Part shown: piece after piece, positions 1 through 1,167 of the stretch | Layout of the letters: every line of letters begins with the position of its first letter | Numbering within the stretch: position 1 is the first letter of the stretch | Assembly: GCA_002842285.1 (NCBI GenBank) | Contig: PHCJ01000002.1 | Location: forward strand, 124,001 to 188,000 | From: Betaproteobacteria bacterium HGW-Betaproteobacteria-22 | GTDB lineage: Bacteria; Pseudomonadota; Gammaproteobacteria; Burkholderiales; Methylophilaceae | Direction of reading: 5' to 3' | Length of the DNA stretch: 64,000 bases | Translations under genes and position numbers: made by a program | Notes under the pieces: generated by a model | Told to the model about the DNA's origin: nothing | The model's database searches: none | What the model saw: the letters and a program-made list of their open reading frames with translations, nothing else

Positions 1-598
1 GCTTGTCGTAATTTGAATCAGATCGTATTGGATTGACGACAGCGATAGCAGACTTAGGAGGACCGTTAGCGCCAATTTCATGATGATCAGTCACTATTAC
101 ATCAATGCCAGCATCTGCAATCTTTTTAATTCGTGGTTCATCACTACTCCCCTTATCCGCAGATATAACCAAGCCTGGTTTAATATCAATGATTCTTTGA
201 GCAACTGGTTCTGTAATACCATAACCTTCAGTAAGTCTATGGCTAGTAACTACATTTACTAATGAAGGGTTAACATTGAAGTAATCAATTAATGCTGACC
301 ATAAAACAGCCGCCGAGCCCGTACCATCCATATCATGGTCACAGACTAGTACTATTTTTTCTTCGTTTTTGATGGCGCCCACTATCCGCCTTACTGCAAC
401 ATCCATATCAGGTATTGATGATGGATCTTCTACATCAGATAAATCATTGGAATACAACAATTCAACATTAATTGGTTTATCTAGTCTTGATGATAAAATT
501 TTGGCAAGCCAGCTAGACATCCCATTTTCAATTAGATTTGAATATACGGATTCATCAATTTCACGAGCTTTAAATATGGGATTTGGTGGCTTTGACAT
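1..598 (-). CDS. Divergent RecJ-like DHH-family exonuclease (N-terminal part, runs off left edge)
   Basis: This reading frame is missing from the ORF track because its stop lies outside the window; I translated it from the reverse strand. It starts at an ATG with a stop codon directly upstream and is open for 199 codons. DHH phosphoesterase motifs are plain: motif I 'VCDHDMDG' near residue 85, 'SADKGSS' near 146 and the DHH box 'VTDHHEIG' near 168, in the order and spacing of RecJ single-strand-specific exonucleases. It is clearly not the native recJ, whose N-terminus lies at 916-1167; the sequence is more AT-rich and the N-terminal domain differs. I infer a RecJ homologue brought in by a mobile element inserted in recJ. 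Whether it acts in repair, element replication or defence cannot be told from this part. Ribosome binding site is weak. Confidence 0.85.
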   Translation of the reverse strand, partial: MSKPPNPIFKAREIDESVYSNLIENGMSSWLAKILSSRLDKPINVELLYSNDLSDVEDPSSIPDMDVAVRRIVGAIKNEEKIVLVCDHDMDGTGSAAVLWSALIDYFNVNPSLVNVVTSHRLTEGYGITEPVAQRIIDIKPGLVISADKGSSDEPRIKKIADAGIDVIVTDHHEIGANGPPKSAIAVVNPIRSDSNYDK

Positions 599-915
599 TT
601 ATACGTCCATTATTTTTACTCAGAGTGCTTTAAATGTGACTGATATAACTTTTGAATAAAAATTAATTATTTAAGAATTTACTCTAGCCCTGATCATATC
701 TAGGCTAGTTAGTGGCATTACAACTTATGAAATTAATTGTGAAACACTAAATTTAAGAATCAGTTAATGAATAATACTTTTGTTAAACAATTAGAAAACT
801 ACAAAGCAAATAAAGTATTTTTTTACAAACTATTATTTTATTGTTAATATATCATCGTGATAATTAATGCAGTATATTGTTTTTATTAATTTTTTTATTT
901 AAATAATAAAAAATT
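599..915. other. AT-rich gene-free stretch, likely end of an inserted element
   Basis: About 320 bases of very AT-rich DNA separate the divergent RecJ-like gene from the truncated native recJ. I see no open frame worth calling and no clear terminator. It contains long A/T runs and differs sharply in composition from the DNA to its right. Its right edge abuts recJ motif I, so it probably holds the terminal sequence of the inserted element and its promoter region. Confidence 0.5.
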
Positions 916-1167
916 TCATGACCGAAGAAAATCACCTACAATCAGTATTTTTTTGTTGGCTTGAATGGCATCCGCCAGCAAGCGCGCCATCTGTTGATTA
1001 TGTGTAAGGCTATGTGGTGACAACAACTGATTTAACGAAGTTTTAACCTGAGCAACATCCGCAACGCCTCTTGCCGCAAAAAGCTTGGCCAGTATCGGTG
1101 CAACCCCTGCCAACTCCAATATTTTCACCGCTTCTTTTGGTATATTTCTCTGTACAATTCGTGTCAT
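916..1167 (-). pseudogene. recJ: recJ, N-terminal fragment (truncated inside catalytic motif I)
   Basis: The 83-residue product matches the start of RecJ, the 5'-3' single-strand DNA exonuclease of recombination and mismatch repair (usually about 560-580 residues). It reads normally through 'KKILIVGD', where RecJ should continue into the metal-binding DYDADG motif, but instead ends with 'FLRS' and a stop. The whole DHH and DHHA1 region is therefore missing and the fragment cannot be active. It starts 7 bases after the RpfE-like gene, the usual betaproteobacterial arrangement, so this was the native recJ. The break is abrupt and the DNA beyond is of different composition, which fits insertion of foreign DNA rather than gradual decay. 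Confidence 0.85.

Follow-up and report, generated by a model that had tools for sequence, protein, structure and literature searches.

A probable GInt-type island in the motif I codons of recJ that carries a putative substitute RecJ

The native recJ gene of the Methylophilaceae genome studied here (G000) is split within the codons of its catalytic motif I, and the intervening DNA carries a second, distinct RecJ homologue, which we call RecJ-2. We consider it likely that a GInt-type island integrated site-specifically into these codons and supplies RecJ-2 as a substitute for the enzyme that it breaks. The window (the whole stretch analysed, 64,000 bp) comprises bases 124001–188000 of C28, a 300-kb contig of a draft genome (2.53 Mb, 40 contigs, 99.98% complete), and contains one end of the island. 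Searches of an open-access library turned up no account of recJ serving as an integration site.

The 5′ fragment of native recJ, delimited by reading and by congener alignment, occupies window positions 934–1167 on the minus strand (78 codons, to the VG of VGDYDADG) and is 45–61% identical to the start of intact congener recJ (61% with G024). By sequence reading, the gene is split at GTAGGT|GATTTT (window 928–933), so that the DYDADG codons are the break site, with GTA GGT GAT TTT on the 5′ side and GAC TAC GAT GCA GAT GGT on the 3′ side. At this point the intact recJ of congeners continues GATTACGATGCAGATGG (DYDADG). In the window a chimeric open reading frame (916–1167, minus strand) encodes RecJ residues 1–78 as far as VG and then D-F-L-R-S-stop, entering the island and ending at 916 with a stop codon four codons after GAT. 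Left of 928 the sequence is rich in AT, with 27.6% GC across window 501–1000. The first-pass annotation had described a recJ broken in motif I and followed by AT-rich DNA with a stop four codons on, a description confirmed by the reading frame, the congener alignment and the GC content.

A DHH-family search of the genome located the remaining 490 recJ codons on the same contig and strand, 44.7 kb leftward (C28:78761–80266). This 3′ part begins ...AAA GAC TAC GAT GCA GAT GGT and adjoins nnrD-like and tpiA-like genes, a gene order shared with the relative G013. The candidate recombination cores are GATTTT in recJ sense at the right junction (window 928–933, minus strand) and GACTAC at the left junction (C28:80261–80266). 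When the flanks are joined with either core, the frame is restored to a continuous 579-aa RecJ (VGD(F/Y)DADG) with no recJ sequence missing, which is the expected outcome of site-specific recombination. An integrase using recJ as its attachment site had been proposed at first pass, with the advice to look leftward for the rest of the gene, a repeat of the junction and an integrase, and to compare related genomes. The rest of the gene is present, recombinase genes lie directly beside it and most congeners have an intact recJ; together with the restored frame, the neighbouring recombinase genes favour that proposal. As to the repeat, what both junctions clearly share is only the short imperfect core GA[C/T]T[A/T][C/T] rather than a long direct repeat.

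The native RecJ of this genome is presumably inactive, because the insertion splits the DxDxDG of motif I and translation of the 3′ part could begin only past this motif. We considered a reactivated 3′ fragment and rejected it: following the upstream stop, the earliest start in frame is a GTG past motif I, and its product would lack the motif.

The island as a whole, assigned to the GInt type, spans ~44.7 kb (C28:80267–124927); its right end occupies window positions 1–927 and the remainder lies left of the window. Beside the left junction is a gin-like operon (C28:80411–86017, plus strand) of four overlapping genes encoding 440, 508, 821 and 122 aa. The second protein, GinB (508 aa), has a Phage_integrase domain; GinA and GinC gave no Pfam integrase match on their own. 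GinA is 30–36% identical to proteins on IncHI2 plasmids of Enterobacter and Salmonella, which carry the annotation 'site-specific integrase', and to a protein on a Paraburkholderia replicon. In these three plasmid elements the GinA relative is followed by a second, a large third and a small fourth gene, in the order of the window island, with BLASTP identities of 28–37% for GinA, GinB and GinC, and of 29% for GinD against the Salmonella element. Judged from sequence and gene order, the operon is the ginABCD of GInts. Between it and the AT-rich end lie ~39 kb of cargo, in which reading of the open reading frames by eye recognised copper/heavy-metal efflux genes, P-type ATPases and an istAB-like insertion sequence. 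An ordinary prophage or ICE was rejected, since inspection by eye of the listed island open reading frames revealed neither phage structural genes nor genes for conjugation.

The gin-distal terminus is AT-rich by GC content (window 599–927) and ends in a putative terminal arm, ATGACCGAAG (918–927), that forms an imperfect inverted match (8/10) with ATGACCAAAA at the opposite end. Shuffled ends match equally well in 9% of cases, and the inverted arms of this island are suggestive only; such arms are significant for G013 only. Left of the window, beside RecJ-2 (C28:119993–122641, L005:13994–16642), lie a truncated MmeI-like gene (245 aa), a T5orf172 gene and a CAP12/Pycsar-type TIR gene that matches PADLOC PDC-S35, a cluster that may represent a defence locus or its remnant.

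RecJ-2, which was absent from the first-pass annotation, starts 0.3 kb from the right junction, at the island end opposite the gin operon. The whole gene (C28:122823–124598, minus strand) encodes 591 aa, and its N-terminal 199 codons fall in the window (1–598, frame 2–598). The protein has DHH, DHHA1 and RecJ_OB domains, matches RecJ crystal structures (PDB 8y30, 2zxo, 5f54) and is 33% identical to the native RecJ of its host. Its match to TIGR00644 is strong (E 4.5e-107), with a score of 358.6 bits that is below the curated equivalog cut-off of 396.9 bits, and the safe name is therefore 'RecJ-like' rather than RecJ equivalog. The catalytic residues are kept, namely DxDxDG, the D of motif II, DHH and the D of motif IV. 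RecJ-2 has its own signature (DHDMDG, ADKG and PAVAAAGR), and beside the catalytic residues DNG of the native enzyme is replaced by DKG and PRLNAAGR by PAVAAAGR. Given these altered residues and the score below cut-off, RecJ-2 may not fully replace native RecJ. Its residues and codons around motifs I and V are unlike the recJ target DNA, and it is therefore probably not an insertion target there itself. In a phylogenetic tree RecJ-2 forms a single clade (support 100/99) far from the native RecJ of Methylophilaceae; nearest to it, on a long branch (89/85), is a RecJ whose gene neighbours a threonine-synthase-like one in a genome from a different family within the class. We infer that RecJ-2 provides the RecJ activity of the cell for as long as the island is integrated. 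A homologue carried on the element supports a swapping of RecJ, which the first-pass annotation had raised beside its loss. In G000, where RecJ-2 lies on the same strand downstream of the recJ 5′ fragment, it is possibly expressed from the native recJ promoter; this was rejected as a general rule, since the RecJ-2 of G013 is divergent from the recJ 3′ fragment.

A recJ profile run over 52 genomes of the genus revealed two further interrupted genes, in G013 and G010; partial recJ genes in G015 and similar cases were discarded as interruptions because they are located at contig ends. In G013, a single contig with both junctions, an island in the opposite orientation breaks recJ at the motif III DHH codons. 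Its ginABCD is a different one (429, 515, 724 and 179 aa), with GinB and GinC 22–23% identical to those of the window island; the joined flanks give a 564-aa RecJ. In G010 the cut falls in motif V (PRLNAAGR) and joining gives a 563-aa RecJ, with the two ends on different contigs. Beside the G010 recJ 5′ fragment are proteins of 612 and 786 aa that appear recombinase-like by eye. Their module (612, 786, 206 and 132 aa) is barely similar to gin by BLAST (a single match of 28 residues, E 0.002), has one VPA1267-family match below cut-off and may be a Gamma-Mobile-Trio or of a related type. G933, from another genus, shows a motif V cut as in G010 with similar terminal sequence and a single element end in the assembly, where no recombinase genes are visible. 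In all four genomes RecJ-2 adjoins a recJ fragment, starts ~250–390 bp inside the element end and faces into the element.

Two further features of these elements were observed. In G010 (L059:3944–4792) and G933 (L063:8904–9746), the element end places an ATG in frame with the recJ 3′ fragment (MQYKRLNAAGR...), from which a C-terminal RecJ fragment could be expressed. A RecD2-like helicase gene follows two unrelated recombinase modules, in G010 (L060:1117–10296, by profile) and in Paraburkholderia (L023:12004–20940, by eye).

We searched 187 Methylophilaceae genomes with a RecJ-2 profile. Scores of 1287–1329 bits were obtained in exactly four genomes, the recJ-interrupted G000, G013, G010 and G933; G913 scored 923 bits and native RecJ no more than 234 bits. 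The chance of RecJ-2 occurring in just the four interrupted genomes is ~3 in 100 million, by a hand count over the 174 genomes with a match that ignores relatedness and serves as a guide only. The four RecJ-2 genes are 83–94% identical, versus 57–75% for the native RecJ C-termini of the same genomes. For G000 and G933 the values are 93.6% and 58%; identity of RecJ-2 so far above that of the native genes indicates that RecJ-2 moves between hosts. The low dN/dS among the four genes (~0.06–0.13) indicates that RecJ-2 is kept under constraint by purifying selection. Scanning collections of genome contigs and viral contigs with the RecJ-2 alignment added only G933, the known G010 and two remote viral-contig proteins.

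The intermediate match in G913 (L073:12611–14401; 63–66% identical to RecJ-2) lies between a DEAD-box helicase gene and corA/glnS-like genes. In this 87% complete draft no gin genes were found near it, nor were native recJ and its neighbour nnrD, and the gene is perhaps a domesticated replacement or a leftover. Beyond the family, no island in recJ was found in a sample of 399 genomes from across the order. Nine genomes outside Methylophilaceae with more than one recJ match were checked; by appearance they have broken frames, profile matches split in frame, gene fragments or remote paralogues, and no island. A more distant relative, a DHH phosphoesterase at 38% identity, was seen on the Xanthomonas citri plasmid pXAC219 (L092:7881–9809) near HU, rdgC and thermonuclease genes; these plasmids are ~220 kb, and RecJ-like genes may be common plasmid cargo.

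Such relatives bear on the alternative that mobile elements carry RecJ-2 as an all-purpose accessory, serving their own DNA processing or counter-defence rather than compensating for a broken recJ. The Xanthomonas plasmid genes belong to the same broad group (38% identity), sit beside HU and near rdgC, and have no visible recJ break. However, near-identical RecJ-2 occurs only in the four recJ-interrupted genomes of the 187, where it invariably lies at the end of the element next to part of recJ and accompanies different recombinases. A control points the same way: eight other Methylophilaceae genomes encode a GinA 31–34% identical to that of G013, and RecJ-2 is present in none of the eight. 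The seven GinA loci without RecJ-2 that we examined sit at the 3′ end of ssb, a site already known as a GInt hotspot, and leave the SSB tail DDIPF intact, showing that RecJ-2 follows insertion into recJ and not gin as such. We therefore regard a purely accessory role as unlikely. At these loci (L117–L123, in G024, G859, G021, G919, G918, G858 and G921) the GinA relatives lie directly after ssb and the tail FDDFEDDIPF is kept; the ssb of G858 has diverged (MNNLNFTGNIGRDCETRY...) and is possibly another substituted target.

The element might instead profit from removing host RecJ, for example by shielding single-stranded intermediates, with RecJ-2 an altered enzyme tuned to the element and not an equal replacement; we think this quite unlikely. 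In its favour, the insertions fall in catalytic or conserved motifs and not at a harmless gene end, and RecJ-2 differs around motifs II and V. GInts have also been compared with strand-biased elements, for which a single-strand circle stage is proposed (PMC10214605). Conserved motifs, however, are simply the best-conserved target DNA too, and strong purifying selection is compatible with either reading. RecJ works on linear ends, not circles, which counts against this explanation. Misassembly or random rearrangement without site-specific integration, conceivable in a 40-contig draft, is exceedingly improbable and assembly error was ruled out, since both junctions lie within one 300-kb contig with the expected neighbours on either side, the joined flanks restore the reading frame exactly and an event of this kind is seen, both junctions included, in the single-contig relative G013.

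In the preferred reading, integration with substitution, three tyrosine-recombinase-type proteins and a small fourth protein (ginABCD-like) would move the island, and conserved codons of recJ would serve as the attachment site; as these codons are catalytic and conserved, the target would be present in almost every host. RecJ-2 would take over RecJ activity while the island is in place and precise excision would restore native recJ, leaving one RecJ in the cell in either state. The substitute would lower the cost of insertion. It might also act as an anchor, as a cell that lost the island imprecisely would be left without any RecJ, which may be costly. We lean modestly towards a broader model of target-gene substitution, in which unrelated recombinase islands attach in recJ at different catalytic or conserved motifs, each brings one and the same RecJ, which spreads horizontally and is free of the target DNA, and the host alternates between its own RecJ (island out) and the island RecJ (island in). 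The link between RecJ-2 and recJ insertion comprises four cases from one family, with the G010 ends on two contigs and one end only for G933.

Gene ends and tRNA genes are the usual insertion sites of integrative elements, which thereby avoid harm. Here, several different islands enter active-site or conserved-motif codons of a core repair enzyme, and the apparent payment is a substitute from a different RecJ lineage. This suggests that there are mobile elements which replace the core gene that they break. The case offers a directly testable model of gene substitution by mobile elements, of the way in which a conserved protein motif can act as a broadly available attachment site, and of how a repair gene is replaced by a xenologue in nature. 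There is also a risk for annotation, as such genomes may be listed as recJ-negative or as having two recJ genes.

Among known systems, the closest are the GInts of Bardaji et al. 2017 (PMC5385486), which have a ginABCD operon (two integrases, one large integrase-like protein and one small protein) and a tripartite layout of gin operon, 2.5–70 kb of cargo and AT-rich 3′ end. They insert site-specifically at a 6-nt core with flanking direct imperfect repeats of 10–17 nt, and their excision as circles requires all four gin genes (PMC5385486). The window island likewise has a four-gene operon in the same order at one end, variable cargo, an AT-rich other end and a 6-nt core. Known GInts occur mainly at gene ends (ssb, ABC transporter), where their authors consider the target probably not fully inactivated (PMC5385486); unlike them, the window island splits recJ in a catalytic motif and carries a substitute gene. 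SpyCI of Streptococcus (PMC4129442) likewise enters a DNA-repair gene site-specifically and affects its host: it occupies the 5′ end of mutL and produces a mutator phenotype. The window island differs in that it brings a different, complete gene of the broken gene's family. Strand-biased circularizing integrative elements (PMC10214605) and Gamma-Mobile-Trio systems (cited in PMC12715929) share a multi-gene recombinase-type module and variable cargo, and the G010 module may belong near these; unlike them, the module of the window island is gin-like by sequence. Finally, RecJ-2 resembles the RecJ single-stranded-DNA exonuclease (PDB 8y30, 2zxo, 5f54) in its DHH, DHHA1 and OB domains and catalytic D/H residues, and is distinguished from the RecJ of those structures by its subfamily motifs (DHDMDG, ADKG, PAVAAAGR) and its occurrence on islands.
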